This document shows, one piece after another, positions 26,604 to 43,975 of a stretch of DNA of 64,000 nucleotides (the stretch's first letter is position 1; every line of letters starts with the position of its first letter). Made by a program: the position numbers and the translations under genes. The stretch covers positions 4,340,001 through 4,404,000 of the forward strand of contig NZ_JACCBA010000001.1 in the NCBI RefSeq assembly GCF_013409365.1, in the 5' to 3' direction. Source of the DNA: Actinomadura luteofluorescens (GTDB lineage Bacteria > Actinomycetota > Actinomycetes > Streptosporangiales > Streptosporangiaceae). A model generated the notes under the pieces. The model searched no databases and was not told the origin of the DNA. It saw only the letters and a program-made list of their open reading frames with translations.

Positions 26604-26824
26604 GCCGCCTCTCGGTCGCGATATGCCTAGATTTTTCCCTATCTAAGGCCTTTGCTCAAGCAAGTCTGATTTCAACTGATTTTCCCTTTTACTTTGTTCG
26701 ATCACCCCGGATGCGTCCCGCATAACGAACACCGGCACGTGTTGCGAGATCGCATTTTCTGTGTACGGTATCCCCCGTGACGATCTAGAGACGTCACGTG
26801 GCGAACAAACAAGGGAAGAACACC
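26604..26824 (+). promoter_or_regulatory. AT-rich intergenic with palindromic operators upstream of the M20 gene
   Basis: A perfect inverted repeat CGTGACG (26776-26782), nine bases, CGTCACG (26792-26798) lies 26 bases before the start codon, right after a likely -10 (TACGGT, 26764-26769). Upstream, TGCGA-GA-TCGCA (26740-26751) is a second palindrome near the -35 position. Bases 26620-26700 are markedly AT-rich compared with flanking genes. Confidence 0.55.
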
Positions 26825-28066
26825 ATGTCCGAATTCTGGACTCCGGGCGCGAATGCGTCCGGCATTGACCCCGGCAGCCTCAGGCTCCGGTTCGACGAGT
26901 ACCTCTCCCGGTGCGAGCGGGAACTGATCGGCATCCGCCGTGACCTGCACGCGCACCCGGAGGTGGCCTTCGAGGAGTACCGCACGACCGGGACCATCGT
27001 CGCGTTCCTGACCGCGATCGGTCTCCGGCCTCGGGTCCTGCCCAGCGGTACCGGCGTCATCTGCGACATCCGCGGGGGCGACGGTCCGATGGTCGCGCTG
27101 CGCGCGGACATCGACGCGCTGTCCCAGCACGACACCAAGGACGTCTTCTACCGCTCGACGGTGGAGGGCGCGGCGCACAACTGCGGCCACGACGTCCACA
27201 CCACCATGCTGCTGGGCGCGGCGCGCTTCCTCGCGATGCTGGCCGAGGCGGGCCTGCTCCACGGCACGGTGCGGCTGATCTTCCAGCCCGCCGAGGAGCT
27301 CCCCGGCGGCGCGCGGAACGTGATCGCCGACGGCGGCCTGGACGGGGTGGAGCGCATCTTCGCGCTGCACTGCGACCCGGCACAGGAGGTCGGATTCCTC
27401 GGTCTGCGGACCGGGGCGATCACGGCGTCCTACGACAAGATCCGGGTGGAGGTCACCGGGCCCGGCGGGCACACCGCCCGGCCGCACCTGACCGCCGACC
27501 TGATCACGGCGATGGGAGCCATCCAGACCGGCCTGCCGGCGGTGCTGTCGCGCGGGATCGACTCGCGTTCCGCCCACGTGCTGGCCTGGGGCCGCGTCGA
27601 GGCGGGCTCGGCGGCGAACGCGATCCCCACCGAGGGACTCCTCGAGGGGACGCTCCGCTGCCTGGACCCGCAGGACCGGCGGTTCGCCCTGGCCGAGCTG
27701 CGGAGGCTGCTCGGCCACCTGGCGGGGCTCTACAAGGTCGAGGCGGAGATGACCACCTCGATCGACCTGCCGCCCACGATCAACGAGGCGACGAGCGTGG
27801 AGATCCTCCGGTACGCCGGAGGTCTGGCGCTCGGCGAGGACAAGCTCAACCCCACCGGTCAGAGCATCGGCGGGGAGGACTTCTCCCTCTACCTCGAACT
27901 GGTCAAGGGCGCCCTCGGGCGCTTCGGCGTGCGCAAGCCCGGCACCCCGAAGTACGACCTGCACCAGGGCGGTTTCGACGTCGACGAGAGCTGCATCGCG
28001 CTCGGCGTCCGACTGCTGGTGCACACGGCGCTGACGGCTCTGGCCCGCTCGCGGTCCGAGGCCTGA
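26825..28066 (+). CDS. M20-family amidohydrolase (hippurate/IAA-amino acid hydrolase type)
   Basis: 413 residues from ATG 26825 (AAGGGAAG upstream). Metal-site motifs of the M20D subfamily: RRDLHAHPEVAFEE, MVALRADIDAL, HNCGHDVHTTMLLGAA, FQPAEELPGGARN with catalytic Glu, and the late metal His region IGGEDFSLYLE. These enzymes remove an acyl group from N-acyl amino acids or amidated metabolites in the cytoplasm. The promoter carries a perfect palindrome, so a dedicated repressor is likely; none is adjacent. Confidence 0.88.
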   Translation: MSEFWTPGANASGIDPGSLRLRFDEYLSRCERELIGIRRDLHAHPEVAFEEYRTTGTIVAFLTAIGLRPRVLPSGTGVICDIRGGDGPMVALRADIDALSQHDTKDVFYRSTVEGAAHNCGHDVHTTMLLGAARFLAMLAEAGLLHGTVRLIFQPAEELPGGARNVIADGGLDGVERIFALHCDPAQEVGFLGLRTGAITASYDKIRVEVTGPGGHTARPHLTADLITAMGAIQTGLPAVLSRGIDSRSAHVLAWGRVEAGSAANAIPTEGLLEGTLRCLDPQDRRFALAELRRLLGHLAGLYKVEAEMTTSIDLPPTINEATSVEILRYAGGLALGEDKLNPTGQSIGGEDFSLYLELVKGALGRFGVRKPGTPKYDLHQGGFDVDESCIALGVRLLVHTALTALARSRSEA

Positions 28067-30377: not shown

Positions 30378-31529
30378 TCATGCACCGGCGGACCGGATGC
30401 GGTCGAGGGCCGGGAGCGGGAACAGGTCGTAGGCGTAGTAGTCGACCGCGTCGGCGCCGGAGGCGCGGGCGGCGGCGGCCTTGGCGGACAGGTGGCCGGC
30501 CGAGGTCGTGTCGGGGTGACCGGGTCGCAGGACGGCGCGGAGCGCGGTGTCCGGCCCCAGGGCGGCGCGGTATGCGGCCACGTCCTCGCCCACGCGGACG
30601 GTGTCGTGGGCGTAGCAGAGGATCGCGTAGGACGGGACCGCCGAGCCGAGCGCCGCGGGATCCACGCCGATCCGCCAGGCGGAGTCTGCGGCCGGGGCAC
30701 CGGTGGGACGTCCGTCCGCGTAGCCCAGGACGGCGCCCGTGAGGTCGAGGAACGTCAGCTGCGAGCCCTCGGCGGCGACGGCCGCGGCGACCTCCGCGGC
30801 CAGCGAGGTGACGATCGGCGCGCGGGCGCGGGCGTACTCGGTGAGGACGCCGGGCAGGTCGGAGGCGGGTGGGCCGCCGTCCAGGACGTCCCCGGCCAAG
30901 CGGGCGGCGACGTCGCGGGCCTTCTCGGCGTCAGGGAGACGGGGCAGGCAGTGCGCGCAGAAGCACAGGCCCAGTGCGAACTCGGCGGCGGGGCCGAGGT
31001 CCACGAAAGAGCGTTCGTGATGGTAGCCGTGGCCGAACGTCCCGAAGTGCAGGGATTCCGCGACGACGGAGTCCACGCCTTGGCGGGCGATGGCGCGGCC
31101 CAGTGCGACGGCATAGGCGCGGACGTCCGGGTGGGACGGGCACAGGTCGGCGGGCGCCGCACGGTCGCCGAAGCAGTTCTCTTGCGTGACGTCCGGAAAG
31201 GCCAGGCCGAGCGTGGTGTTGTGCAGGAAAACGCCCCAACCATGCAGCGCGACACCAAGCTCGCGGGTCTCGTCCCTGAGCGCGCGTATGGGCTCGCGGT
31301 CGGCGCCCTTCTGCACCGGCGGCACCAGCCGGAGGCCGTCGAAGTGGTCGCCCAAGGGGAAGTGGACGCCGTCATGCCGGAACGTCACGCGCGTTGTGCC
31401 GTGCGGTGTCACGTCGCGGGCGCGGTGGTAGGCGGCGCCGATCGTGATGGACGAGACGCCGTGGGAGAGGATCCGCGCGGCGTCGGCACCGCGCGGACCC
31501 TCCACCATGGCGAAGAGGGACGAGTCCAT
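30378..31529 (-). CDS. Conserved-looking protein of unknown function, last gene of the deacylase/KDG operon
   Basis: 383 residues from ATG 31529, sharing one base with the RidA stop. No standard motif recognised. Alternating strands and helices (SSITIGAAYHRARD, ELGVALHGWGVFLH, VRAYAVALGRAIARQGVDSVV, LTFLDLTGAVLGYADG, PSYAILCYAHDTV, ADAVDYYAYDLFPLPALDRI) suggest a TIM-barrel hydrolase-like fold, and a CFCAHC cluster near residue 195 could bind metal or form a disulfide. Its position at the end of the operon, coupled to RidA, suggests it acts on the same substrate, for instance as a glycosidase-like or lyase-like enzyme. No signal peptide. Confidence 0.55.
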   Translation of the reverse strand: MDSSLFAMVEGPRGADAARILSHGVSSITIGAAYHRARDVTPHGTTRVTFRHDGVHFPLGDHFDGLRLVPPVQKGADREPIRALRDETRELGVALHGWGVFLHNTTLGLAFPDVTQENCFGDRAAPADLCPSHPDVRAYAVALGRAIARQGVDSVVAESLHFGTFGHGYHHERSFVDLGPAAEFALGLCFCAHCLPRLPDAEKARDVAARLAGDVLDGGPPASDLPGVLTEYARARAPIVTSLAAEVAAAVAAEGSQLTFLDLTGAVLGYADGRPTGAPAADSAWRIGVDPAALGSAVPSYAILCYAHDTVRVGEDVAAYRAALGPDTALRAVLRPGHPDTTSAGHLSAKAAAARASGADAVDYYAYDLFPLPALDRIRSAGA

Positions 31530-31912
31530 CAGCTCTTCTTGTAGGCGACGAAATCGATCTCGACGAGGATGTTCATCAGCTGCGAGCCCACGGTGGTGCG
31601 CACCGGGTAGGGCTTGGTGAAATGCTCCCGGTAGACCTCGTCGTAGGCGGCGAAGTCGCGGTGGAGGTCCTGGAGGTGGACGGTCGACTTCACCACGTCG
31701 TCGAAGCCGAGCCCGTGCTCGGCCAGGATCGCGGCCAGGTTGGCGAGGGTCTGCCGGGTCTGCGTGGCGACGTCCGTGCCGACGATCTCGCCCGTCTTCG
31801 GGTCGAGCGGCCCCATCCCGGACGTGTACACGAAGTCGCCGACCACGAGCCCCTGCGAGTAGGTGCCGACGGGCGGGGCGGAGTCCGCGCTGCGAATCTC
31901 GCGCTTGCTCAT
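31529..31912 (-). CDS. ridA: RidA-family enamine/imine deaminase
   Basis: 127 residues from ATG 31912 (GAGGAGA upstream); an upstream in-frame extension into the tandem repeats is rejected. Family motifs: VGTYSQGLVVGDFVYTSGM, LANLAAILAEHGLGFDDVVKSTV, and PVRTTVGSQLMNILVEIDFVA with the substrate-binding Arg. RidA hydrolyses reactive enamine/imine products of PLP-dependent dehydratases to keto acids and ammonia. Placement in an operon with a D-serine-dehydratase-like enzyme fits that job directly. Confidence 0.92.
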   Translation of the reverse strand: MSKREIRSADSAPPVGTYSQGLVVGDFVYTSGMGPLDPKTGEIVGTDVATQTRQTLANLAAILAEHGLGFDDVVKSTVHLQDLHRDFAAYDEVYREHFTKPYPVRTTVGSQLMNILVEIDFVAYKKS

Positions 31913-31929
31913 ATCTGTCTCCTCATCTG

Positions 31930-32013
31930 TGACCCTGCTTCTCGGGTGACCCTGCTTCTCAGCTGACACTGCTTTCAGCTGACACTGCTTCCCGGGTGAC
32001 ACCGCTTATCGGG
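31930..32013 (-). repeat. Five tandem 16-17 bp repeats between kinase and RidA genes
   Basis: Units at 31930, 31947, 31964, 31980 and 31997, of the form TGACcCTGCTTCTCggG, the third one base shorter. The last unit contains the kinase stop codon (TTA on plus, 32006-32008). They fill the gap between kdgK and ridA and end 17 bases before the RidA start. They might be translation-spacing slippage repeats or protein-binding sites; nothing in them codes convincingly. Confidence 0.8.
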
Positions 32014-32956
32014 TGACGTCGTTCCCCGCGGTTCTCAACAGTTCCAGATCGGCGCGGCTGGGCAGGCCCTCCCAGTCGCCGCGGACGGTGACGGCGTAGG
32101 CCCCCGCGGCCGTCGCGGTGGCCAGGCGGGTGGCGACGGGCAGGCCGCGGACGAACTCGGCGAGGTAGCCGGCGGCGAACGCGTCCCCGGCGCCGACCGG
32201 GTCCACGACGGGGACCCGGTGGGCGGGCTGGACGTGCAGCCGCCCCTCGCAGAACGCGACCGCCCCGTCGGCGCCCCGCTTGACCAGGACGTCGCCGGGG
32301 CCGAGCGCGGACAGGCCGGTGGCGAGCGCGGCCGGGTCGTCGCCGGGCACGACGAGGCGCGCCTCCTGCTCGGTCGCGAACACCAGGTCGGCGCGCTTGA
32401 CCAGGGTGTGGAGGCATTCCCCGGCCTCGGCGGGCGTCCACAGCGCCGACCGGTAGTTGAGGTCGAGGGAGACGGGGACGCCCGCGTCCCGCGCGGTCTC
32501 GACGGCGTCGTCCAGGGCCTGGCGGGCGGTGTCGCTGATGGCGGCGGTGATGCCGGTGACGTGCAGGACGCGCGCGGTCCTGATCAGGTCGTGCGGGACG
32601 TCGGACGGGCGCAGCCGCGAGCCCGCGCTGCCCGTCCGGTAGTACTGGACGCGGGTGAGCGTGCCCGAGCGGCGCTCCTTGAACAGCAGCGCGGTGGGCG
32701 CGGTCCCGTCCACCACCGTGTGGCCGAGCCGGACGCCTTCCCCGGCGAGGGACGTGGTGATCAGCCGGCCGAACTCGTCGTCGCCGACGCGGCCGAACCA
32801 GGCCGCGCTGCCGCCGAGCCGCGCCAGCCCGATCGCCGTGTTCGACTCGGCGCCGCCGATGCCGAGGTCGAGCGAGCGGGCGTGGCGCATCGGCCCGACG
32901 GCGGGGTTCTCCAGCCGCGCCATGGTCTCGCCGAACGTGACGAGGTCGGGGCTCAT
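32006..32956 (-). CDS. kdgK: 2-keto-3-deoxygluconate kinase (PfkB family)
   Basis: 316 residues. PfkB signatures: LGIGGAESNTAIGLARLGG near the N-terminus and DPVGAGDAFAAGYLAEF (anion hole and catalytic Asp) near residue 255. VTFGETMARLENP resembles KDG kinases, as does the QYYRTGSAGSRL segment. Reaction: KDG plus ATP to KDPG. The ATG shares four bases with the stop of the KDPG aldolase gene, so kinase and aldolase are made together. This pairing strongly supports KDG as the substrate over other PfkB sugars. Confidence 0.88.
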   Translation of the reverse strand: MSPDLVTFGETMARLENPAVGPMRHARSLDLGIGGAESNTAIGLARLGGSAAWFGRVGDDEFGRLITTSLAGEGVRLGHTVVDGTAPTALLFKERRSGTLTRVQYYRTGSAGSRLRPSDVPHDLIRTARVLHVTGITAAISDTARQALDDAVETARDAGVPVSLDLNYRSALWTPAEAGECLHTLVKRADLVFATEQEARLVVPGDDPAALATGLSALGPGDVLVKRGADGAVAFCEGRLHVQPAHRVPVVDPVGAGDAFAAGYLAEFVRGLPVATRLATATAAGAYAVTVRGDWEGLPSRADLELLRTAGNDVTR

Positions 32957-33618
32957 CGGGCGTTCTCCTCCGGGGCGCGCTCCCGCGGGGCCGCCGCGGC
33001 GAGCAGCGCCCGCGCGCGGTCGGCCAGCGCGGTGAGGGAGCCGCCGTCGAGGGCGTCGCCGATGAGGGAGCCCCCGGCGCCGACCGCGATCGCCCCGGCC
33101 GCGAGGTACTCGGCGGCGGTGTCCGGGCCGACGCCGCCCGTCGGCAGCAGCCGGACGTCCCGGAACGGCTCGGCGAGGTCGCGCAGGTAGCGCGGCCCGA
33201 ACGCGTTCGCCGGGAAGATCTTCACGGCGGTGGCGCCGAGGTCCCAGGCGCGGGCGACCTCGTTCGGGGTGAGGGCGCCCGGGTAGTAGCGCAGGCCCCG
33301 GTCGCGGGCCGCCTCGGCGACCTCCGCGCGGGTGTCGGGGGCGACGAGGAAGGACGCGCCGGCGTCCGCCGCGGCCTCCGCCTCCGCGCGGGTCCGGACC
33401 GTTCCGGCGCCGACCTCGACGCCGGCGGGCAGCCGGTCGCGGGCCGCGCGCAGGGCGTCCAGGGCACCCGGGGTGTTCAGGGTGACCTCCAGGCAGCGGA
33501 CGCCGGCGGCGACCAGCGCGTCCAGGACGTCGGCGACGCGGTCGGCGCGGCGGCCGCGCACGACCGCGACCACGCCGGTCGCGGTCAGCGCGGGTCCCGG
33601 CGACAGGCGGGGGATCAT
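32953..33618 (-). CDS. eda: KDPG/KHG aldolase
   Basis: 221 residues, class I aldolase barrel. Catalytic Glu is in CLEVTLNTPGALDAL, the Schiff-base Lys in TAVKIFPANAFGP, and the phosphate-binding strand is LLPTGGVGPDTAAEYLAAGA. Reaction: 2-keto-3-deoxy-6-phosphogluconate to pyruvate plus glyceraldehyde-3-phosphate. It lies 25 bases downstream of the deaminase gene and overlaps kdgK. The extra C-terminal Ala/Arg tail is unremarkable. Function is secure; pathway role is inferred from the operon. Confidence 0.93.
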   Translation of the reverse strand: MIPRLSPGPALTATGVVAVVRGRRADRVADVLDALVAAGVRCLEVTLNTPGALDALRAARDRLPAGVEVGAGTVRTRAEAEAAADAGASFLVAPDTRAEVAEAARDRGLRYYPGALTPNEVARAWDLGATAVKIFPANAFGPRYLRDLAEPFRDVRLLPTGGVGPDTAAEYLAAGAIAVGAGGSLIGDALDGGSLTALADRARALLAAAAPRERAPEENAR

Positions 33619-33643
33619 GGGGTTCCCTTCTCGGAGGTACCGG

Positions 33644-34858
33644 TCAGAAGTAGGTGCGGATCAGGTCGACCACCGTGTGGTCGTCGTCCACGACGGGGAT
33701 GACCTGCCACTTGTCGAAGGCCGTGCAGGGGTGGGAGATCCCGAAGCAGATCAGGTCTCCCGGACGCACGGAGGCGTCCCCCGTCGCGACGTAGGCGTGG
33801 TGGTCGTTGGTGTCGGTGACGCGCATGCCGTCCGCGGAGGCGGTCGTTCCGTCCGCCCTGCGGATCCGCAGCGGGACGGGCAGGCCGGCGTCGTAGGGGG
33901 CCTCCCGCTTGCCCATCCCGGCGATCGCGAGGCCGGGCTCCGGGACGGACGTGACCTGCGCCCAGATCTCCAGCGCGGCGTCCAGCGAGCCGGGGACGCG
34001 GTTGAACGGCGTCCGCTCGGTGTAGATGCCGTCGTCGTGGGAGACGTAGGCGCCGCTGCGCAGGACCACGGTGAGGTCGTGGCCGGGCAGCCAGTCGCCC
34101 GCGAGCTTCTCGGCGACCTGGTCGAAGTAGGCGCTGCCGCCCGCGGTGACGACGACGTCGCGGGGGAGCAGCGGGGACAGCCGGGCGGTCGCGTCGCGCA
34201 GCGCGCCGAGGTAGGCGCGGGCCGCGGCGACGTCCGGCAGCCCGCCCTCGTACCCGGCGACGCCGACGAGTTCCGTGCCGGGCGCGTCGGCGACGGCGCG
34301 GGCGACGGCGGCCAGCTCTTCGACGGTGCGGCAGCCGGTGCGGCCGCTCGCGTGCCCGAGTTCGACGAGCACCCGGAACGGGCGCTCACCGGCCGCCGCG
34401 GAGATCGCCGCGACGCCCTCGGCGGAGTCGGCGTACAGCAGGAACTCCATGCCGCGGTCGATCTCGCCGCCGAGCCAGCGCAGCGCGGTCGGGTCGAGCA
34501 GCTCGTTGGCCAGCAGGACGCGGGGGACGCCGAACGTCCGGTAGGCGAGCACCTGGTTGGCCGTCGCGGCGGTGATGCCCCAGGCGCCCGCGTCCAGCTG
34601 GGCCTGGAACAGCGTCGGGGCCATGGACGTCTTGCCGTGCGGCGCGAACGCGAGCCCGTGCTCCCGGCAGAACGCGGCGAGCGCCGCGATGTTGCGGTCC
34701 AGCGCCGTCCGCCGCGCCACCATGACCGGCCAGGTGAACGGGCCGCCGAACAGCGGGTGCCGGGCGGCGGCGAACTCCTCCAGGGGGACGGGCGGCCCGG
34801 GCAGCCAGAGGCCCTTGGTCCGCCAGTCGACGTGCTCGCCGGGAATGGTGAGGCTCAC
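33644..34858 (-). CDS. PLP-dependent amino acid deaminase (D-serine dehydratase-like / D-threonine aldolase fold)
   Basis: 404 residues from GTG 34858, overlapping the IclR stop by four bases. Fold-type III barrel: PLP Lys76 in AFAPHGKTSMAP, then RVLLANELLDP, GHASGRTGC, and GVAGYEGGLP. The C-terminal domain has the zinc pair His-x-Cys in GISHPCTAFDKW, as in eukaryotic-type D-serine dehydratase. Such enzymes eliminate water and ammonia from D-beta-hydroxy amino acids. Next to KDG kinase and KDPG aldolase, the natural product would be KDG, which makes D-glucosaminate (a D-beta-hydroxy amino acid) an attractive substrate; this is inference. Confidence 0.85.
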   Translation of the reverse strand: MSLTIPGEHVDWRTKGLWLPGPPVPLEEFAAARHPLFGGPFTWPVMVARRTALDRNIAALAAFCREHGLAFAPHGKTSMAPTLFQAQLDAGAWGITAATANQVLAYRTFGVPRVLLANELLDPTALRWLGGEIDRGMEFLLYADSAEGVAAISAAAGERPFRVLVELGHASGRTGCRTVEELAAVARAVADAPGTELVGVAGYEGGLPDVAAARAYLGALRDATARLSPLLPRDVVVTAGGSAYFDQVAEKLAGDWLPGHDLTVVLRSGAYVSHDDGIYTERTPFNRVPGSLDAALEIWAQVTSVPEPGLAIAGMGKREAPYDAGLPVPLRIRRADGTTASADGMRVTDTNDHHAYVATGDASVRPGDLICFGISHPCTAFDKWQVIPVVDDDHTVVDLIRTYF

Positions 34859-35712
34859 GGCTGGTTCCCTTCGTGCGGGTCGTGACGCGACGTGTCGTCG
34901 CGGGGCCGGTCGGGGCGGCGGCGGGACGGACGGGACGAGCCGAGCACGCGGGAGATCTCCAGGCCCGCCCGCTCGACCATCGGCCCGACCTCCCGGACCC
35001 GCGCCGGCGTCATCCGGGACGTCAGCCCGGACACGCTGAGCGCGCCCACCGCCCGGTCGGTGTGGTCGAAGATCGGCGCGGCGACGCAGCGGACCTCGGG
35101 CTCGTTCTCCCGGTCGTCCACGGCGTACCCGGACAGGCGCACCCGCTCCAGCTCGGCGGCCAGCCGCGCCGGGTCGGTGATCGTCCGTTCGGTGCGCGCG
35201 GGCATGCCGGCCGCGACGACCGTCTGGAAGTCGTCCTCGCCGAGCCAGGCGAGGACGGCCTTGCCGACGGCCGTCCGGTAGGCGGGCATCCGCAGCCCGA
35301 CGCGGGACGCCATCCGGACGTTGTGCTCGTTCTCCACCTTGTCGATGTAGACGACGTCGGGGGCCTCGTAGACGACGAGGTGGCACGTCTCGCCCACGAG
35401 GTGCTGGAGGCGGCGCAGCGGGTCGGCGGCGACCGACCGCATGTCGAGCGTCGACAGGTACGCCTGGCCGAGCCGCAGCGCGCCGTGCCCGAGCCGGAAC
35501 CAGCCGGTCTCGCGGTCGCGGGTGAGCAGGTCGCCGTCGATGAGCGGCTGCGCGAGCCGCAGCACGGTGCTCTTGCTGATGCCGAGGTCGTCGGCGATGC
35601 GGGTCAGCGACACCCCGCGCGCGTCGGCGTGGTCGCGGACGTGGTCGAGGACGGCGAGCGCGCGGCGCAGCGACGACGACTGGTTCCTCGGTTTCGCCTG
35701 GTCGGTCGTCAT
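34855..35712 (-). CDS. IclR-family transcriptional regulator of the catabolic operon
   Basis: 285 residues. HTH_IclR at the N-terminus (ALAVLDHVRDHADARGVSL, RIADDLGISKSTVLRLAQPL), then the IclR effector domain (about 80-260: LVGETCHLVVYEAPDVVYID, GLRMPAYRTAVGKAVLAWL, GYAVDDRENEPEVRCVAAPIF). The C-terminus has a charged tail (RPSRRRPDRPRDDTSR). It overlaps genes on both sides by four bases and so is made as part of the operon it presumably controls, either repressing it or activating it in response to an intermediate such as KDG. Confidence 0.92.
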   Translation of the reverse strand: MTTDQAKPRNQSSSLRRALAVLDHVRDHADARGVSLTRIADDLGISKSTVLRLAQPLIDGDLLTRDRETGWFRLGHGALRLGQAYLSTLDMRSVAADPLRRLQHLVGETCHLVVYEAPDVVYIDKVENEHNVRMASRVGLRMPAYRTAVGKAVLAWLGEDDFQTVVAAGMPARTERTITDPARLAAELERVRLSGYAVDDRENEPEVRCVAAPIFDHTDRAVGALSVSGLTSRMTPARVREVGPMVERAGLEISRVLGSSRPSRRRPDRPRDDTSRHDPHEGNQP

Positions 35713-36452
35713 GTGGTGCTCCCCGGAAGGAGCCCGCGGCGCAGGACGTCCCGCGCGGCGCGCAGGTGCCGCCCGGCGCGGGCGAGCGAGATCTCGTGGT
35801 GGCCAGGCAGCAGCATGTCGACCTCCAGCCCGGCGAGCCGCTCCAGGCTCGCGGCGTAGTCGGGGACGCGCGAGTCGTGCAGGTTCTGCAGCGAGATCCG
35901 CCCGCCGGTGAAGACGCAGTCCCCCGAGAACAGCGCGCGGCCCTCGGGCGCGTCAAGCAGATAGCAGGTGTGGCCGTCGGCGTGCCCGGGGGTGGCGACG
36001 GCCTGGAGGGCGACGCCTCCGCCGAGGTCGACGCGCTCCCCGTCCGCGATGGGACGGACCGCCGGGCACGCCGGGAACGTGTAGCCCTCCGGGTAGACCC
36101 CGGCGGCCTTGCCGCGGTCGACGCTGAGCTTCTCCTCCTCGCCCGAGGCGATCCAGTCGCTCGCCGGTGCCCCCGCGCGAACGTCGAGCCCCTGGACGCC
36201 CCGGGCGAGGCCGGCGGCGCCGCCCGCGTGGTCGGCGTGCCCGTGGGTGAGCAGCAGGTGCCGCTCCCCCGCCGGCCCGGCCGCCGCGAGCATCCGCCGG
36301 GCGAGCAGCCCGGCGGACACCCCGGCGCCCGCGTCGACCAGTGCCGAGCCCCGCGACCCCCGCACGAGGTAGACGTGGCAGTCGAGCGGGTCGGTGAGGT
36401 CGAACCCGGCGGCCCCGCTGCCGACGAGTTCGACGTGCTGCGTCAGCCTCAT
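35709..36452 (-). CDS. MBL-fold metallohydrolase
   Basis: 247 residues from ATG 36452, overlapping the M20 stop and the IclR start by four bases each. The signature HGHADHAGG is intact, with AVATPGHADGHTCYLL (second His), FSGDCVFTGGRI (bridging Asp) and LPGHH (last His). All di-zinc ligands are present. Substrates in the superfamily include lactones, thioesters and phosphodiesters. In an operon for a sugar-acid derivative, a lactonase is a reasonable guess; no direct evidence. Confidence 0.88.
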   Translation of the reverse strand: MRLTQHVELVGSGAAGFDLTDPLDCHVYLVRGSRGSALVDAGAGVSAGLLARRMLAAAGPAGERHLLLTHGHADHAGGAAGLARGVQGLDVRAGAPASDWIASGEEEKLSVDRGKAAGVYPEGYTFPACPAVRPIADGERVDLGGGVALQAVATPGHADGHTCYLLDAPEGRALFSGDCVFTGGRISLQNLHDSRVPDYAASLERLAGLEVDMLLPGHHEISLARAGRHLRAARDVLRRGLLPGSTT

Positions 36453-37586
36453 GCCCGGCTCCCCAGGGAGCGGACGGTGTCGGCGACGATGCGCGCGGCG
36501 AGGTCCACGTCCGCCAGCGCGACGGACTCGTCGGCGGAGTGGGCGTCGGCGATGGAGCCGGGGCCGAAGACGACCGAGGGGATGCCGGCGCGGGCGAGCT
36601 TGCTGGCGTCGGTCCCGAACGGCATGCCCTGGACGGTCGCGGGACGTCCCGCCGCTTCCAGGGCGCGGCGGAGAGCGGCGGGGACCGGGCTGCCGGCGGG
36701 CGTGTCGAGGGCGTAGTCGACGGTGAACGGCTCGTCCACCTCGATGCGGCCCGGGATGAGCGCGGCCAGCTCGGCGCGGTCGCGGCGCCACACCTCGACG
36801 GGGTCCTCGCCGGGGAGGGTGCGGCGGTCGACGTCGATCTCGCAGCGGCCCGGCACCGTGTTCGGGCCCTCGCCGCCCCGGATCCGGGTGACGCAGCGGG
36901 TCGCCGTCCCGAGCAGCGGGTGCGGCGGGACGTCCGGCGCCGCCGCGCCGATGTGGTCGATCACGCGCGTCATGAGCGCGACCGCGTTGACGGCCTCGTC
37001 CGGCCGGGAGCTGTGCCCGGCCGTCCCGAGCGCGCGGACGGTGTAGCGGACGCAGCCCTTGTGCGCGGTGGCGGGGACGAGCCCGGTCGGCTCCCCGACG
37101 ACGGCCCCGGCGAGCGGCGCGTCCCCGAGGTCGGAGATCAGGCCGAGGACGCCCTGGTAGGCGTGCTCCTCGTCCACGACCCCGGCGAGGACGACACCGA
37201 CCGGCGGCGGGTCCCCGGCCGCCAGCTCCTCCGCCGCCAGCATGAACGCCGCGAGCGGCCCCTTGGCGTCGCAGGCGCCGCGCCCGTACAGGCGGCCGTC
37301 CCGGATCGTCCCGGCGAACGGGTCGACGGTCATGCCGGTGGTCTCGACCGTGTCGAGGTGCGACTCCAGCAGCACCATGCGGGGATCGCGTCCCGGCACG
37401 GTCGCGACGACGTTGGGACGTCCCGGCAGCACCTCCCGCAGCTCCGCCTTCACGCCGCGGGCGGTGAGCCAGGGCCCGCACGTACTCGGCGACCGCGGCC
37501 TCCCCGAACCCGGGGCCGGACCCGGCGCGCGGGTTGACGCTGGCGATGCCGACCATCGCCTTGAGCAGTTCCCCCGATCGCGTCAT
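36449..37586 (-). CDS. M20-family deacylase (ArgE/DapE-like), frameshifted
   Basis: Translation from ATG 37586 gives MTRSGELLKAMVGIASVNPR, GFGEAAVAEYVRA and then breaks. One extra base in the GGGCCC run at 37472-37477 shifts the frame; removing it continues smoothly as WLTARGVKAELREVLPG to 36449. The remaining gene (open from ATG 37453) has the metal His/Asp in LLESHLDTVE, GRGACDAKGPLAAF, catalytic Glu-Glu in VVDEEHAYQG, and VVGEPTGL. Enzymes of this type release acyl groups from N-acyl substrates. The frameshift may be a real mutation or a homopolymer sequencing error; the truncated product would keep every catalytic motif. Confidence 0.78.
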
Positions 37587-38554
37587 CAGGACCGCCGTTC
37601 CCGCGCGTAGGCGAGCAGCAGCGCGATGATGAGCAGGCCGAGGACGATCTGCCGGACGCCCTCCGAGACGTTCCACGCGGCCAGCAGGGCGGTCAGCAGC
37701 GTCAGCAGCAGCGCGCCCGCGACGGTGCCGAGCACGTGCCCGCGCCCGCCGAGGATGGACGTCCCGCCGAGCACGACCGACGCGATCGACAGCAGCTGGT
37801 ACGGGTTGCCCATGGTGAGCGAGCTGGTGGAGGTGAACCCGAGCAGCACCAGCCCCGACACCCCGGCGAGCAGCGCGCACGCCCCGTAGGCGATGAACGC
37901 GGTGCGGGCGAGCGGGACGCCGGACGCGCGCGACGCCCGCTCCCCGTTGCCGAGCGCGAACACCCACCGTCCGGCACGGGAGGCGTGCAGCAGCCACGCG
38001 GCGACGGCGGTGATGCCGAGCCACAGGACGAACGCGAGCGGGACGCCCGCGACGCGGTCGTTGGCCAGGGACGCCAGCATCGGCACCTTCGCCGACTTCG
38101 GCGACCCGTTGGTGTAGACGAGCAGCGCGCCGGCGACGATCGTGCCGGTGGCCAGCGTCATCACCATCGGAGGCACCCGGAGCCACGTCACCCCGGCGGC
38201 GTTGGCGAGCCCGACCAGCAGGCTCGCGACGAGCGCGACGGCGACGCCCGCGGGCCCGCCCGAGCCGGCGGCGACCTGCGCGCACACCACCGCCGACAGC
38301 GCGACCACCCCGGACACCGACAGGTCGATGCCGCTCATCATGATCACGAGGGTCTGGCCGACGGCGACGATCCCGAGGAACGCGGCGGTCTGCGTCAGGT
38401 AGCGGACGCTGGAGACGCTGTCGAACCCCTTGGCGAACGCGATCGCGGCGATCCAGGTCACGATCAGCACGCCGAACGCCCAGGCGGCGCGGTTGTCCCG
38501 CAGCGCCGCCACCGGCCCGCGGGCGCCCGCGGTACGCGATAGCGCGGTCATCAT
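37586..38554 (-). CDS. ABC sugar-type permease (RbsC family), second
   Basis: 322 residues from ATG 38554, overlapping the preceding permease by four bases. Eight to ten membrane spans with the BPD_transp_2 signature VGQTLVIMMSGIDLSVSGVVALSAVV and the conserved SVVLGGTSILGGRG loop near residue 260. It forms the channel with the other permease as a heterodimer, energised by the ATPase at 39488. The family imports pentoses, hexoses and related sugar derivatives. Confidence 0.92.
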   Translation of the reverse strand: MMTALSRTAGARGPVAALRDNRAAWAFGVLIVTWIAAIAFAKGFDSVSSVRYLTQTAAFLGIVAVGQTLVIMMSGIDLSVSGVVALSAVVCAQVAAGSGGPAGVAVALVASLLVGLANAAGVTWLRVPPMVMTLATGTIVAGALLVYTNGSPKSAKVPMLASLANDRVAGVPLAFVLWLGITAVAAWLLHASRAGRWVFALGNGERASRASGVPLARTAFIAYGACALLAGVSGLVLLGFTSTSSLTMGNPYQLLSIASVVLGGTSILGGRGHVLGTVAGALLLTLLTALLAAWNVSEGVRQIVLGLLIIALLLAYARERRS

Positions 38555-39495
38555 TGCGTCCTCTCCCTGGTCGCCAACGTCTTGACGGCGATCGCCACGA
38601 TCAGCACCGCGCCCTGCATGATCAGTTGGTAGAACGGCGAGAGCCCGGTGAACAGCAGCAGGTTGGTGAGCAGGCCGATGAGCAGCGCGGCCAGCACGGT
38701 CGCGCGCATCTGGCCGACGCCGCCGAAGAAGCTGACCCCGGCGAGCACCGACGCGGCGATCGAGTTGAGCGTGTACGGGGTGCCGATCGTGGCGTCCCCG
38801 GAGCCGGTCTGGATCGCGAGGCCGATGCCCGCGAGGCCGATGAAGACGCCCGCGAGCGCGTAGGCGGAGATCTTCACCTTGCGGGTGCCGATGCCGCTGG
38901 CGTAGGCGCCGTGCTCGTTGCCGCCGACCGCGTACAGCGACAGCCCGAAACGGGTCGTCCGGACGAGCTTCCAGAGCAGCAGCACCAGGGCGATCGCCAC
39001 GAACGGCAGCGCGAGGCCGTTCCAGCCGTTGTTGTACGCCTTGACCAGGCCGGACGGGACGCTCCCGCCGGGCTGGGGGAGGACCACGAGCGTGACGCCG
39101 CCCCACAGGAACGACGCCGCCAGCGTCACGATGATCGGCGGCAGCCCGGCGTAGGCGACGAGCACGCCGTTCGCGGCGCCGGTCGCGGCGGCGGCGGCCA
39201 GGGCCAGGCCGGCGGCGACGAGCACGCCGTCCTCGGCGCGCACGGCGAACACCGCCATCGCCAGAGACAGCACCGCGCCGAGCGAAAGGTCGATGCCGCC
39301 GGCCAGCATGACGGTGCTCTGCCCCATCGCCGCCAGGATCAGCGGCAGGAACTGCGCCGACAGGATCGTGATCGACGCGGGGGTGAACACCTGCGAGTCG
39401 TAGTGGCTGTAGACGGCCAGCAGGACGACCAGCAGCGCGCCGAGGCCCGCCATGTCGAGGTTGCCGCGCAGCGCGGCGGTGAGGCGGTCAGGCAT
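38551..39495 (-). CDS. ABC sugar-type permease (RbsC family), first
   Basis: 314 residues. Motifs GQSTVMLAGGIDLSLGAVLSLAMAV and SIAASVLAGVSFFGGVGQ are the paired permease signatures of the ribose/galactofuranose importer family. The N-terminal residues overlap the ATPase stop by eight bases. It differs from its neighbour enough that the pair is a heterodimer rather than a recent duplication. Confidence 0.92.
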   Translation of the reverse strand: MPDRLTAALRGNLDMAGLGALLVVLLAVYSHYDSQVFTPASITILSAQFLPLILAAMGQSTVMLAGGIDLSLGAVLSLAMAVFAVRAEDGVLVAAGLALAAAAATGAANGVLVAYAGLPPIIVTLAASFLWGGVTLVVLPQPGGSVPSGLVKAYNNGWNGLALPFVAIALVLLLWKLVRTTRFGLSLYAVGGNEHGAYASGIGTRKVKISAYALAGVFIGLAGIGLAIQTGSGDATIGTPYTLNSIAASVLAGVSFFGGVGQMRATVLAALLIGLLTNLLLFTGLSPFYQLIMQGAVLIVAIAVKTLATRERTQ

Positions 39496-41110
39496 GCGCC
39501 ACCGCCCCGGTGACGGAGGCGCGGACGAGCCGCTCCTCGGTGAGGTCGCCGCCGGAGAGCCGGTCCACGACCGCGCCCTCGTACATGACGGCGACCTCGT
39601 CGCACAGGCCGACGAGTTCCATGGTGTCTCCCGAGGTGACGAGGACCGCCACGCCGCTGTCGGCCAGCCGGCGGAGCAGGTGGTAGATCTCGCGCTTGGT
39701 GCCGACGTCGATGCCGCGGGTCGGCTCGGCGAGCAGCAGGACCCGCGGCTCCGAGGGCAGCCAGCGGGCCAGCGCGACCTTCTGCTGGTTGCCGCCCGAC
39801 AGCCGGCGCGCCTCCTGCTCCGGGCCGGTCACCTTGATCCGCATGCGTTCGACGAGGTCGGCGACGAGCCGGGCCTCGGCGCCGCGGTCGACGGTGCCGA
39901 GCCGGCGGCCGGGCGTCACGACGCCGAGGTTGGTGAGCGACAGATTGGCCCGGACGGTCTGCGCCACGTGCAGGCCCTCGACCTTGCGGTCCTCCGGGAC
40001 GTAGGCCACGCGGCGGCGGATCGCCTCGCGCGGGGACGCCAGGCGCGCGGGACGTCCGTCCACCTCGACCCGGCCGGTGTGCCGGACGAGCCCGAACAGG
40101 GCGCGCAGCACCGCCCGCTGCCCCTGCCCCTGGAGGCCGCCGAGGCCGATGATCCGGCCGGGTTCGAGGTCGAGGTCGACGCCGGCGCAGGCGCCGGGGA
40201 CGGTCAGCCCCCGCGCGCGAAGCACCGGCGCGCCCGCGGGGACCGGGGTGGCGCCCCCCGCGGAGTCCTCGGCCGCCTCCTTCTCGGCGGCGATCTCCCG
40301 CTCGGAGGGGATGGCCGCGGCGTCGCCGCCCGCCGGGGCGGCGCCCGCCGGTGTGCCCGCCTCCCCGGCCTTCGGCGGGAACAGGTCGGACAGCTCCCGG
40401 CCGATCATCAGGTGCACGATGTCGTCGTGGCCCGTCTCCGCGCGCTCGCGGGTGGCCATGACCTCGCCGTCCTTGAGCACGGTCAGCCGGTCGGCGACGG
40501 CGAACAGCTCGCCCATCCGGTGGCTGACCATGATCACCGACGAGCCGGCCGCGCGCAGCTCGTCGACGACCTTGAACACGCAGGCCACCTGGTCGTCGTC
40601 CAGGGCGGACGTCGCCTCGTCCAGGATCAGCAGGCGCGGGGACGAGGCGAGCGCCTTGGCCAGCTCGACGAGCTGCTGCTGGCCGAGGGGGAGGCGTCCC
40701 GCCCGGGCCAGCGGGTCGGCGTCCAGGCCGACCCGCGCCAGCAGCGGCCGGGCGCGCCGGACCAGGTCGCGGCGCAGGACGAGCCCGCGCCGCGCCGGCC
40801 ACTGGCCGAGGAACACGTTCTCCGCGACGGTCTGGTGCGGGTTGAGGCTGAGCTCCTGGTGCACCGAGCCGATCCCGAGGGCCCGAGCACGGTGCGGGGA
40901 CCAGGCGCTGACCGGCGCGCCGTCGTAGACCACGCGTCCGGAGTCGGGCGGCAGGAGCCCCGTGATGAGCGAGAGGACGGTGCTCTTGCCCGCGCCGTTC
41001 TCCCCCACCAGGGCGAGGACCTCACCGGCGCGGACGTCGAAGCTCACCTCGTTCAGCACGCGGTTGCCCGCGAAGGACTTGGAGACCCGCTCGACGGCCA
41101 GGAGTGTCAT
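39488..41110 (-). CDS. ABC sugar importer ATPase with two nucleotide-binding domains (RbsA/MglA type)
   Basis: 540 residues from ATG 41110. NBD1: Walker A VGENGAGKSTVL, the SVHQELSL Q-loop, Walker B RLLILDEATSALD, VSHRMGELF. NBD2 (from about residue 285): GLGGLQGQGQRAVL in place of a canonical P-loop, YVPEDRKVEGL, signature LSGGNQQKVALARWL, LLLAEPTRGIDVGTK. One canonical and one degenerate site is normal for RbsA-type ATPases. An Ala/Gly/Glu-rich linker of about 50 residues between the domains (AGEAGTPAGAAPAGG) is longer than usual. Confidence 0.93.
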   Translation of the reverse strand: MTLLAVERVSKSFAGNRVLNEVSFDVRAGEVLALVGENGAGKSTVLSLITGLLPPDSGRVVYDGAPVSAWSPHRARALGIGSVHQELSLNPHQTVAENVFLGQWPARRGLVLRRDLVRRARPLLARVGLDADPLARAGRLPLGQQQLVELAKALASSPRLLILDEATSALDDDQVACVFKVVDELRAAGSSVIMVSHRMGELFAVADRLTVLKDGEVMATRERAETGHDDIVHLMIGRELSDLFPPKAGEAGTPAGAAPAGGDAAAIPSEREIAAEKEAAEDSAGGATPVPAGAPVLRARGLTVPGACAGVDLDLEPGRIIGLGGLQGQGQRAVLRALFGLVRHTGRVEVDGRPARLASPREAIRRRVAYVPEDRKVEGLHVAQTVRANLSLTNLGVVTPGRRLGTVDRGAEARLVADLVERMRIKVTGPEQEARRLSGGNQQKVALARWLPSEPRVLLLAEPTRGIDVGTKREIYHLLRRLADSGVAVLVTSGDTMELVGLCDEVAVMYEGAVVDRLSGGDLTEERLVRASVTGAVAHA

Positions 41111-41112
41111 CG

Positions 41113-42165
41113 CTACTTGCCGATCAGCTTGTCGATCTCGGACTGCGGCAGCGCCTGGATCGGGTAGGAGTCGTCCGGCTGGTCGGCCTGGACGTACTGG
41201 TCCAGGTTCTCGTTCGTGATCTTGGGCAGCGGCACCATGATCTGGTTCGGCACCGTCGCGCCGCCGGCCTTGGCGACCGCCGCGCGCAGCGCGATCACGC
41301 CGAGGTAGTTCGGCTGGGCGGTGGACAGCGAGGAGAACCCCGCGGCCTGGTTGTCCTTCCAGAGCTTGAGGAACCCGTTGTAGTTCTCGCCGGTGATCGG
41401 GACGAGCTTCTTCTTCTGCTTGACAAGGGTCTGGAGCGCGGCGGCCGAGAGCGCGCCGCCCTGCGAGAACACGCCGTCGATGTCGGGGTTGGCGGAGTAG
41501 GCGGAGGCGAACGCCTGCGCGGCGGGGGCGAGGTTGTACTCGCTGTGCACGTTGGAGACGACCTTGACGCCCGGGTACTGCTTGAGGCCCTCCTGGGCGC
41601 CCTGCCAGCGCTCCTCGCTGACCGCGACCCCGGCCGGGCCGTTGAACGCGATGATCTTGCCCTTGCCGCCCAGCTTCTCGCCGAGCCACCGGCCCATCAT
41701 CCGGCCCCACTCCTTCTGGTCCGTGCCGACGCGCACGACCTTGTCGGAGGTGACCAGGCTGTCGAAGTTGGCGACCGTGATGCCGGCGTTGGCCGCCTGC
41801 TCCAGCGCCGGGTTCAGCGCGGTGGACGACCCGGCGTCCACGAGGATCACGTCGTACTTCTGCTGGATCATCGCCCGGATCTGGGCGATCTGCTGGGAGG
41901 TGTCGCCGTTGGCGTTGAACACCTGGTAGTCGGCGACCTTGCCGTCCTTCTTCAGCTGGGCGACGTCGTCCTTCAGCATCTTGTCGGTCTGCTGCATCCA
42001 CGACGGGGTCAGGTAGATCGTGGACCAGCCCACCTTGAGGGCCTTGGACTTTCCGGCGGAGGCGGACGAACCGCCGTCGCCGGAATCGACGCCGCACGCG
42101 GCGGTGGCGGCCAGCGTGCCCAGCGCCGTGACGGCCACGGCGGCGCGCGTGAACCTACCGATCAT
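41113..42165 (-). CDS. Periplasmic-binding-protein-like lipoprotein of the sugar-type importer
   Basis: 350 residues. Lipoprotein signal with lipobox TLAATAAC, then an acidic Gly/Ser spacer. The mature part is a two-lobed Peripla_BP_4 protein (QQIAQIRAMIQQKYDVILVDAGSS, GITVANFDSLV, DGVFSQGGALSAAALQTL). It captures the transported compound outside the membrane. Its stop is two bases before the ATPase start. Sugar-type receptors of this class bind neutral sugars, polyols or sugar acids, not ordinary dipeptides, which bears on the operon's substrate. Confidence 0.92.
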   Translation of the reverse strand: MIGRFTRAAVAVTALGTLAATAACGVDSGDGGSSASAGKSKALKVGWSTIYLTPSWMQQTDKMLKDDVAQLKKDGKVADYQVFNANGDTSQQIAQIRAMIQQKYDVILVDAGSSTALNPALEQAANAGITVANFDSLVTSDKVVRVGTDQKEWGRMMGRWLGEKLGGKGKIIAFNGPAGVAVSEERWQGAQEGLKQYPGVKVVSNVHSEYNLAPAAQAFASAYSANPDIDGVFSQGGALSAAALQTLVKQKKKLVPITGENYNGFLKLWKDNQAAGFSSLSTAQPNYLGVIALRAAVAKAGGATVPNQIMVPLPKITNENLDQYVQADQPDDSYPIQALPQSEIDKLIGK

Positions 42166-42235
42166 GAGGGACTCCTTGTGCTGGTCCGGGCCCGGACGGG
42201 CCTCGGCGAACTGGGCGGGGGGTGGCTTGGGGGGG

Positions 42236-43798
42236 TCAGGCGGGCGTGAGGGCCCGTCCCGGCGGTGTCGCGTTCTCGGCGAGAACTCCGCCGGACAGGA
42301 CGGGGACGCCGTTGACCACGACGTGCTCCACGCCGTCGGCGGGCACCCTGGGTCTTTCGTAGGTGGCGCGGTCGGTGACGGCGGCCGGATCGACGACGGC
42401 GAGGTCGGCGGCGCGGCCGGTCTCGACGCGGCCCCGGTCGGCGAGCCGGAACCGGTCGGCGGCGCGCCCGGCCAGGTGCACGGCGGCCTGCTCCCACGTC
42501 CAGTCGCCGAGTTCCCGGACGTGCCGCCCGAGCAGCCGGGCGAACGCCCCCCACCCGCGCGGATGCGGATGCCCGCCCTGGTAGATGGCGTCCGATCCGG
42601 TCGTCTGGGCGGGGTGCCGCAGCAGCGCCCGCACCGACTCCTCGCTGTTGGTCGGGGGCTGCCCGAACACGCACCCGGCCTCCAGCCGGGTCGCGACGAG
42701 CAGATCGCAGCAGAACGCGCCGGGGCCCGAACCGGCCCGCTCGGCCGCGTCCGGCAGGCTCATGCCCTCGGCCCACCGGAACTCGTCGGCGGGGACGTGC
42801 GAGAGCGTGATCCGGGGCCACACCTCGGGGCGGTGCGCGAACCAGTCGCGCTCCAGCCTCTCCCGGACGGACGGTTCGGCGAGCGCGTCCAGCGTGGCGT
42901 CCAGGTCGGCGATGGGAAGCCAGTCCGGCAGCGTGACGAGCGTCAGCGTGCTGGACCCCCGCAGGTAGGGGTAGTTGTCGAAGGTCAGGTCGATGCCCTC
43001 GGCGCGCGCTCCGTCCACGAGCGCGACCAGCTCGTCGCCGGGGCCGTGGTAGTGCGAGACGTGCGGGGCGACCCGTCCGGCCCGCGCGATCTCCAGCACC
43101 TCCGCCATCGCCGCGCCGGCGGCGGACTCGTATCCGCGCATGTGCGTGACGTAGGGCAGCCCGGCCGCGCCGACCGGCGCGCACAGCGCCGCGATCTCGG
43201 CGGCGCCGGCGTAGGCGCCGGGCACGTACTCCAGCCCGGTGGACAGCCCGGCCGCCCCTTCGGACAGGCCGCGCTCGACGTGCGCCCGCATGGCCGCCAG
43301 CTCGCCGGGCTCCGGGGCGCGCCGCGCGGTCCCCATGACGCCGTGCCGGATCGTCCCGTGCGGCAGGAGGTAGACGGTGTTGAGCGGGGTGCGCCGGTCG
43401 TACCCGGCGAGCAGTTCCGCGACGGTCACCGGCCCGCCGTCCAGCCCGGGGTGCGGACCGTTGACCGGCGCGAAGTACCGGCTCACGTAGCGGAGCGTCT
43501 CGGCGCCGGCGGGGGCGTAGGAGACCCCGTCCTGGCCGAGGACGAACGTGGTGACGCCCTGCCGCAGCGCGGCGAGCTGCACGTCGGGGTCGAACACGGC
43601 CGCGTCGCCGTGGACGTGGGTGTCGATGAAGCCCGGCATGACGTACCGGCCGGTCGCGTCGATCACGGAGGACGCCCGCGCGCCGTCCAGGGCGCCGACC
43701 GCGGCGATCCGTCCGGCGGTGACGGCCACGTCCGCGCGGCGCCCGGGAGCCCCGGTGCCGTCCAGCACCGTCCCCCCGCGAACCAGCAGATCGTACAT
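42236..43798 (-). CDS. N-acyl-D-amino-acid deacylase-like amidohydrolase with Cys-to-Asp change
   Basis: 520 residues, amidohydrolase superfamily. H-x-H at His61/His63 in GFIDTHVHGD. Further metal His candidates are in YVTHMRGYES and VSHYHGPGDE, and a catalytic Asp in TTGSDAIYQGG. In well-studied D-aminoacylases the motif GNCG supplies a zinc-ligand Cys; here the aligned text is VLGQDGVSYAP, with Asp90 in its place. First gene of the operon; its promoter region (43799-43975) has repeated GATTTGCA-like elements. The family removes acyl groups from N-acyl-D-amino acids; with a sugar-type importer and KDG genes, N-acyl-D-glucosaminate is a plausible substrate. Confidence 0.85.
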   Translation of the reverse strand: MYDLLVRGGTVLDGTGAPGRRADVAVTAGRIAAVGALDGARASSVIDATGRYVMPGFIDTHVHGDAAVFDPDVQLAALRQGVTTFVLGQDGVSYAPAGAETLRYVSRYFAPVNGPHPGLDGGPVTVAELLAGYDRRTPLNTVYLLPHGTIRHGVMGTARRAPEPGELAAMRAHVERGLSEGAAGLSTGLEYVPGAYAGAAEIAALCAPVGAAGLPYVTHMRGYESAAGAAMAEVLEIARAGRVAPHVSHYHGPGDELVALVDGARAEGIDLTFDNYPYLRGSSTLTLVTLPDWLPIADLDATLDALAEPSVRERLERDWFAHRPEVWPRITLSHVPADEFRWAEGMSLPDAAERAGSGPGAFCCDLLVATRLEAGCVFGQPPTNSEESVRALLRHPAQTTGSDAIYQGGHPHPRGWGAFARLLGRHVRELGDWTWEQAAVHLAGRAADRFRLADRGRVETGRAADLAVVDPAAVTDRATYERPRVPADGVEHVVVNGVPVLSGGVLAENATPPGRALTPA

Positions 43799-43975
43799 TG
43801 GACCTCATTCACCCCAACGAGCACGTAACCGGACTTCAGTGCCGGTAGTCGTGGAGGTTATGGGGCGCGCCAAGCGCGGCACCAGATTTGCAACACATGA
43901 TTTTGCACTGCACAACCACCACTTGACCTGCGACGTTACCCGAAGCCAGCGGTGAGGAGCGCAGACGCGCGACGC
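43799..43975 (-). promoter_or_regulatory. Promoter region of the deacylase/KDG operon
   Basis: A 177-base gap with lower GC than the flanks. GATTTGCA (43885-43892) and GATTTTGCA (43899-43907) repeat at a 14-base step, and the second runs into TTGCACTGCACAA. These are candidate IclR sites. No gene is visible here. Confidence 0.4.

Follow-up and report, generated by a model that had tools for sequence, protein, structure and literature searches.

What substrate is degraded by a 13-gene operon of Actinomadura luteofluorescens, and do its genes form one pathway? The operon lies in a 64,000-nucleotide stretch of DNA (the window), which covers positions 4,340,001-4,404,000 of a single-contig 9.62-Mb genome and whose proteins have their closest relatives in Actinomadura. 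The first-pass annotation had read it as a catabolic operon for N-acylated amino-sugar acids, and all 13 minus-strand genes that it placed at 30378-43798 are found there, with the families given below. They are transcribed from 43798 to 30378, spaced no more than 93 bp apart and in several cases overlapping by 1-8 bp. On balance, the operon seems to serve the uptake of an N-acylated 2-amino-2-deoxy-aldonate and its catabolism to 2-keto-3-deoxygluconate (KDG), then to pyruvate and glyceraldehyde-3-phosphate. That this substrate is specifically N-acetylglucosaminic acid (GlcNAc1A) is rather doubtful. The features, in order of transcription, are as follows.

43901-43915, no strand assigned: palindromic element TTGTGCAnTGCAAAA, probable IclR operator, from its conservation and its uniqueness in the genome
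42236-43798, minus strand: D-aminoacylase-like N-deacylase (DAA), 520 aa; Amidohydro_3, residues mapped against the published deacylase OngB
41113-42165, minus strand: CUT2-type substrate-binding protein (SBP), 350 aa, lipoprotein-like; Peripla_BP_4 at E 3.9e-51, lipobox by eye
39488-41110, minus strand: sugar-type ATP-binding cassette (ABC) ATPase with two nucleotide-binding domains, 540 aa; matches to AraG/XylG/RbsA-type models fall short of the equivalog cut-offs
38551-39495, minus strand: ABC permease A, 314 aa; ribose permease model at E 7.5e-40, below cut-off
37586-38554, minus strand: ABC permease B, 322 aa; ribose permease model at E 3.6e-39, below cut-off
about 36449-37586, minus strand: M20 (ArgE/DapE-type) amidohydrolase, frame broken near the N terminus; family models and alignment of relatives
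35709-36452, minus strand: metallo-beta-lactamase-fold (MBL) hydrolase, 247 aa; Lactamase_B at E 2.1e-27
34855-35712, minus strand: IclR-family regulator, 285 aa; IclR_C at E 1.8e-49
33644-34858, minus strand: fold-III pyridoxal phosphate (PLP) D-serine-dehydratase-like deaminase (DSD), 404 aa; D-ser_dehydrat and Ala_racemase_N
32953-33618, minus strand: 2-keto-3-deoxy-6-phosphogluconate (KDPG) aldolase, 221 aa; TIGR01182 at 178.8 bits, cut-off 156.05
32006-32956, minus strand: KDG kinase-like PfkB kinase, 316 aa; 1v19 at E 4.4e-62, KDG_KDGal_kin model at 236 bits, cut-off 400
31529-31912, minus strand: RidA, 127 aa; TIGR00004 at 108.1 bits, cut-off 106.25
30378-31529, minus strand: U383, predicted TIM-barrel glycosidase-like protein, 383 aa; predicted structure, without a Pfam or NCBIfam family

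The chemistry suggested by these families has a published counterpart. In the ong pathway of Pseudoalteromonas, GlcNAc1A is deacetylated by OngB to glucosaminic acid (GlcN1A), which is deaminated by OngC to KDG, which KdgK then phosphorylates to KDG-6-P (PMC9537276). It is reported that GlcNAc1A is the oxidised end left by lytic polysaccharide monooxygenases (LPMOs) acting on chitin, that OngB is a relative of D-aminoacylases, that OngD, a RidA-family protein of the ong cluster, is essential for growth, and that the clusters of Vibrio, Klebsiella, and Serratia add the aldolase gene kdgA (PMC9537276). The series proposed for the window, i.e., import, N-deacylation, PLP-dependent deamination to KDG, KDG kinase, KDPG aldolase, and RidA, follows the same order as this route. 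Because the chemistry matches it, the pathway idea, put forward in the first-pass annotation without naming this route, is plausible but not new in kind. In that report's survey, every complete ong route is gammaproteobacterial except one, from a betaproteobacterium (PMC9537276), and in Aeromonas, OngB and OngC are reported as distant or absent (PMC11653859). No account of an actinobacterial cluster of this kind was found in the open-access literature, where U383 has no name to search.

As a single operon under IclR control, the 13 genes would act on GlcNAc1A or an epimer, possibly in the form of a lactone or a glycoside. It would enter through the ABC importer, in which the CUT2 family is observed and the substrate is proposed, and MBL might perhaps open a lactone form. 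DAA would then remove the N-acyl group by means of an unusual Asp/His/His metal site, whose residues are observed; in relatives, M20 may be the deacylase instead. The PLP protein would eliminate the C3 hydroxyl, and hydrolysis of the enamine or imine, helped by RidA, would give KDG and ammonia. For this step the family and motifs are observed and the reaction is known for OngC. The kinase and aldolase, again observed as families, would complete the route to pyruvate and glyceraldehyde-3-phosphate. U383 is conceivably an intracellular glycosidase freeing the aldonate from an imported disaccharide, replacing the periplasmic GH20 enzyme OngA.

The lower part of the route is represented as follows. 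The best PDB match of the kinase is the KDG kinase 1v19, with which it has a YYRxGSAGS stretch in common, and its nearest NCBIfam models are those of KDG/KDGal kinases, below their equivalog cut-offs. It is therefore predicted to be a KDG kinase at the family level only. The aldolase exceeds the curated cut-off of TIGR01182. KDPG aldolase is also encoded elsewhere in 20 of 20 genomes checked whose U383 locus lacks it (16 with a deaminase module and four Streptomyces with a transport module), which is permissive and not probative for the KDG route and discriminates poorly. RidA, a family also represented in the ong route, scores above the TIGR00004 cut-off, and its start is most likely 31912 (127 aa), the same as in another Actinomadura locus (L103).

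DSD has the architecture of D-serine dehydratase-like enzymes, with Ala_racemase_N and D-ser_dehydrat domains. Its HGKT and SHPC motifs are shared with OngC; we take these to be the PLP-Lys motif and the metal (His-x-Cys) motif of fold-III PLP enzymes, respectively. Its best PDB match is the D-serine deaminase 3gwq (242 bits). Both 3gwq and BhcC resemble DSD in domain architecture and in the two motifs. They differ in that DSD is embedded with a KDG kinase and an aldolase.

The importer, first described as a complete RbsABC-type set, is made up of four genes (SBP, ATPase, and two permeases). The start at 37453 given for M20 does not stand. The frame, which the relatives keep intact, is broken near the N terminus by one extra base that all 14 relatives covering the spot lack, owing either to a loss peculiar to this strain or to an error in sequencing. 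On the plus strand of the window, an ORF at 26798-28066 resembles, by its motif, another M20-type amidohydrolase, and a similar ORF is found downstream of the deaminase region in two Actinomadura loci (L104 and L106). The best PDB hits of MBL are annotated beta-lactamases. MBL and U383 had both been expected to be new parts; this is well supported for U383, but MBL is plausible at most as a lactonase.

Is the gene set more than a local arrangement? Among the genomes sampled (296 of the class and 65 of the genus, the source genome included), a DSD-family protein is matched with an E value no higher than 1e-60 in 60 of the 65 in the genus. Genes were counted as present in a relative by tblastn bit-score thresholds (48 bits for the genus loci, 45 for the class loci, and 60 for the named U383 loci) and simple ORF calls, a scoring that may miss divergent or cut genes. 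The window type of DSD (at least 80% identity) is found in 21 genus genomes, that of the window among them. A second, divergent type (46-50%) is also present in 11 of these 21, and so the two types coexist. The search for the same gene order that had been suggested was made in the 20 other Actinomadura loci with the window type. Six of them have the complete set of 13 in unchanged order (L103, L108, L110, L111, L112, and L120), and six more have 12 of the 13, where DAA is unmatched in L113-L115, RidA is unmatched in L116 and L119, and L117 stops at a contig edge. Two loci truncated by contig ends (L109 and L118) keep eight genes each. Chance neighbourhood was rejected in view of this conservation. 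Gene order thus indicates that the operon is kept as a unit in several species, yet it appears to have been dismantled repeatedly. The 20 genus loci with the divergent deaminase (L123-L142) have DAA in 16, IclR in 15, RidA in 13, the kinase in 11, and the aldolase in one; the deaminase stands alone in four. In the 20 class loci centred on the deaminase (L083-L102), RidA is matched in nine, DAA in eight, the kinase in seven, and the aldolase in three. A locus from another family (L074) has DSD-aldolase-kinase-RidA-U383-DAA as one run.

The regulator and its putative target are also conserved. The closest NCBIfam models of the IclR protein are BhcR and KdgR, both below cut-off. The block TTGTGCAnTGCAAAA upstream of DAA is conserved in all 11 aligned genus sequences, the window included, and two of the loci (L108 and L110) carry the perfect palindrome TTTTGCAGTGCAAAA at its position. 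When up to one mismatch is allowed, the 9.6-Mb genome has a single site matching the pattern, which lies some 100 bp ahead of the DAA start; a control pattern read backward does not occur in that genome. With one mismatch it is also found shortly upstream of the SBP gene in seven of nine Streptomyces U383 loci, where a related IclR (74-80% identical) is part of the set SBP-ABC-Perm-Perm-M20-MBL-IclR-U383, and it was found in none of the 15 other loci tested. TTGTGCAnTGCAAAA is a probable IclR operator, and the simplest reading would be a self-contained IclR regulon with a single site. A single candidate site makes induction tests straightforward.

The last gene of the operon, U383, matched no Pfam family at E 0.01 and no NCBIfam family at E 1e-15. 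In a profile search against PDB sequences, no hit had an E value under 0.18, and a haloarchaeal member scored 22.3 bits with GHL10, under the 27.9 cut-off. Assignment to a named family was rejected on these grounds. An AlphaFold2 model and a fold search gave a (beta/alpha)8 barrel with low-confidence stretches at residues 36-46, 48-56, and 167-173. Clan GH-A-like TIM barrels (Cwp19, GH42, and the C-terminal domain of PgaB) share its overall fold at 13-16% identity. Enzymes of clan GH-A have the acid/base Glu after strand 4 and the nucleophile Glu after strand 7. In U383, Glu158 is invariant in 13 of 13 sequences and lies at the end of the fourth strand, the strand order being that of the model. 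Since it is the only invariant acidic residue in these sequences, the usual GH-A nucleophile is not evident. U383 is thus a predicted glycosidase-like TIM barrel, perhaps derived from a glycosidase.

The named U383 loci are the 80 that rank highest among 520 confirmed, so that the sample leans to close relatives. In 60 of these 80, U383 neighbours the deaminase. Nine have no scored neighbour at all, one of which (L209) has IclR, and in Rhizobium tumorigenes (L156) U383 is present with no deaminase annotated nearby. The idea that U383 marks complete pathways only was rejected on account of these loci. By eye, sensor-kinase-like and response-regulator-like ORFs adjoin two loci, one with deaminase-RidA-U383 (L063) and one with U383 alone (L195).

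U383 is also found in operons outside the actinobacteria. Two Rhizobium plasmid loci (L148 and L149) resemble the window in having IclR, a CUT2 importer, a DSD-family enzyme, RidA, and U383, here in convergent orientation, and the SBP of L148 is 44% identical to that of the window. They differ in having an AstE/AspA-type gene and an Amidohydro_2 gene in place of DAA, M20, and MBL, and in lacking local KDG genes; the Amidohydro_2 gene is nearest to fuconolactonase, below cut-off. Four haloarchaeal loci (L152-L155) were examined, taken, like one Rhizobium record, from 150 plasmid records with a U383 match; two other Rhizobium records and Nonomuraea came from a separate search. These operons of Haloferax, Haloarcula, and Halomicrobium all have IclR, an ABC importer, U383, and a creatininase-family (amidohydrolase) gene. 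RidA is annotated in three (L153, L154, and L155), and eda together with kdgK in two (L153 and L154). In the Halomicrobium locus (L152), genes of the DHDPS-family aldolase and acetamidase families are present instead, and a gene annotated as beta-N-acetylhexosaminidase lies about 9 kb away. Unlike the window, the haloarchaeal operons have the creatininase-family protein, an enolase-superfamily dehydratase, and a short-chain dehydrogenase/reductase (SDR) where the window has a deacylase and a PLP enzyme, and their importer is of another ABC type than CUT2. In Haloferax mediterranei, KdgK scores above the KDG/KDGal-kinase cut-off and the SDR above the glucose-dehydrogenase cut-off. A further haloarchaeal case involves RutC proteins, which we take to belong to the RidA superfamily. 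In natronoarchaea, genes for IclR, RutC-family, galactonate-dehydratase, and glucose-dehydrogenase proteins are reported near chitinases, and a D-glucosaminate route has been proposed (PMC12343721).

Each of the three lineages has a different deacylase, and in the haloarchaea the importer type and the enzyme for deamination or dehydration differ as well. U383 and IclR persist, and RidA usually does. U383 is probably a dedicated cytoplasmic enzyme for the same substrate class as the operon; because the partner enzymes vary by lineage while U383 stays, it can be argued to act on the substrate class and not with one enzyme. As a tentative proposal, U383 may be an unnamed enzyme family marking amino-aldonate operons across domains (actinobacteria, rhizobia, and haloarchaea), with the D-aminoacylase fold separately re-tooled in actinobacteria by an Asp-for-Cys change. 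If this is true, oxidised amino sugars would be consumed far beyond marine Gammaproteobacteria.

Several observations weigh against the aldonate reading, which depends at every functional step on homology and gene context. DAA is 30-32% identical to OngB, for which the L143 protein served as reference (19 of the 20 positions inspected in it carry the residue published for PpOngB). The OngB-type site consists of the zinc ligands Cys97, His222, and His252 with Lys254, Asp368, and Arg379, and the zinc Cys and the carboxylate-binding Lys are reported to be strictly conserved in OngB and D-aminoacylases (PMC12017989). DAA retains His68, His70, Tyr194, His222, His252, Tyr285, Ser291, Ser292, Asp368, and Arg379 (OngB numbering), but Asp replaces Cys97 and His replaces Lys254. 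Among the OngB sugar contacts Glu226, Ser290, Ser292, and Gln298, DAA has Tyr, Gly, Ser, and Arg, with Ser292 alone matched and column 298 falling in a poorly aligned insertion. DAA was therefore rejected as an orthologue of OngB, and since two OngB-conserved residues are replaced, its substrate cannot be read by homology. Its motifs GQDG and SHYH stand where subtype V D-aminoacylases have GNCG and SHHK. In 17 other DAA homologues from class loci, the Cys site is Asp in 16 and the Lys site is His in nine, Thr in seven, and Lys in one; the sole exception (L075) is a canonical Cys/Lys enzyme. The DAA type looks like a separate deacylase subfamily with an altered metal site.

The other adverse points concern the deaminase and the neighbourhood. 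In a 50-row tree, OngC (L143 and L144) falls outside the branch that joins the actinobacterial rows with one Pantoea row (support 100/99), and DSD was rejected as its orthologue. DSD and RidA stand beside an annotated amino-acid ABC importer in Pantoea (L146, of the same tree clade), Agrobacterium (L150), and Chelatococcus (L151), and an amino-acid role is favoured for these deaminases because of those importers. The Rhizobium sets, with a CUT2 importer and a DSD-family enzyme but no local KDG genes, show that a sugar-type importer is no proof of a sugar substrate, as had been argued for the window. Six genus loci are reduced (L104-L107, L121, and L122), L107 to DSD and RidA, L121 and L122 to DSD alone. 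Ten of the 20 class loci have no other operon gene matched; these ten include seven loci of the same family (L083-L089), whose deaminases are the closest found beyond the genus (57-63%). Three named loci (L160, L161, and L165) have DAA directly adjoining U383 with nothing else kept, as if the middle genes had been deleted. The source genome has four LPMO_10 (PF03067) genes (at 8963886, 6564873, 9213248, and 4986499), a point in favour of the aldonate reading, but none is inside the window; other chitin genes were not searched for.

Much of this would suit an operon that degrades N-acyl-D-amino acids, such as N-acyl-D-serine, N-acyl-D-threonine, or another beta-hydroxy-D-amino acid. The deacylase would free the D-amino acid, the PLP enzyme would dehydrate it to a keto acid, and RidA would clear imines, while the kinase and aldolase would handle a hydroxylated keto acid or have been joined by chance. 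In the PDB, DAA is indeed closest to N-acyl-D-glutamate deacylase/D-aminoacylase and DSD to D-serine deaminase, and the aldolase model, a bifunctional one, also covers 4-hydroxy-2-oxoglutarate. Of the 80 named loci, 47 have a deaminase-RidA-U383 set with no KDG genes nearby; the Rhizobium sets have none either, and the sets with amino-acid importers point the same way. OngC itself is reported to deaminate D-Ser and D-Thr as well (PMC9537276). Nevertheless, the KDG kinase and aldolase stay with the gene set in separate lineages, and two haloarchaeal operons combine U383, RidA, KdgK, and eda with no annotated DSD-family enzyme. The loss of the carboxylate Lys suits ordinary N-acyl-D-amino acids no better. 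This explanation is considered unlikely.

Could two once separate modules, each with U383, have been joined, so that their substrates overlap only partly and no linear pathway results? One would be the transport module SBP-ABC-Perm-Perm-M20-MBL-IclR-U383 as in Streptomyces, the other the module deacylase-deaminase-RidA-U383 as in Streptosporangium, Nonomuraea, and others. The transport module occurs without a local deaminase in eight of the 80 named loci, all Streptomyces (L168, L172, L181, L184, L191, L193, and L202, and L177, which shows only M20-MBL-IclR-U383). In 51 of the 80, the deaminase is present and neither the transport module nor the kinase-aldolase pair is local. The restriction of the operator before SBP to Streptomyces among the loci compared fits such a history, but several species of the genus retain the combined operon. 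A deaminase-family gene is moreover found elsewhere in seven of the eight Streptomyces genomes (L181 being the exception), so that a single pathway split between loci is conceivable, and in 17 of 20 genomes with U383 and no local deaminase, as against 102 of the 296 class genomes, comparisons that are confounded by phylogeny. Two joined modules appear quite improbable. Because parts of the operon occur on their own in relatives, a single obligatory 13-gene pathway, as first assumed, is not established either. A route for N-acylated amino-aldonates is still the reading preferred here.

Chitin-active LPMOs are widespread in soil actinobacteria. The operon and its relatives are testable candidates for a route that consumes oxidised chitin ends in actinobacteria, rhizobia, and haloarchaea, and the analysis yields a conserved enzyme family, U383, and a subfamily of the D-aminoacylase fold with an altered metal site. 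What is new is this altered deacylase, the actinobacterial context with its regulation, and most of all U383.

How does the operon compare with known systems? The D-aminoacylases and N-acyl-D-glutamate deacylases (AfDam 1m7j and BbDam 3gip) share with DAA the superfamily, the HxH motif, two further His, the catalytic Asp, and the Arg. They differ from it at the zinc Cys and the carboxylate Lys, where DAA has Asp and His, and in the insertion region. For the pathway as a whole, the ong clusters of Pseudoalteromonas sp. NC201 (L143) and Vibrio sp. THAF191c (L144) were compared, with roles set by tblastn match and gene order. No U383 match was found in these two clusters, and M20 and MBL are likewise extra in the window. 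The ong clusters belong to another phylum and use an SSS symporter (OngIT) and a TonB receptor where the window has a CUT2 ABC importer. Their regulator is of the MurR/RpiR family and that of the window is IclR, and they have the GH20 enzyme OngA, while no GH20 is found among the 13 genes. Common to both are a deacylase of the D-aminoacylase superfamily, a fold-III PLP deaminase, RidA, KDG kinase, and uptake genes with a local regulator; the KDPG aldolase is shared only with the clusters of Vibrio, Klebsiella, and Serratia. By the features tested, the operon would work like ong but falls outside it.

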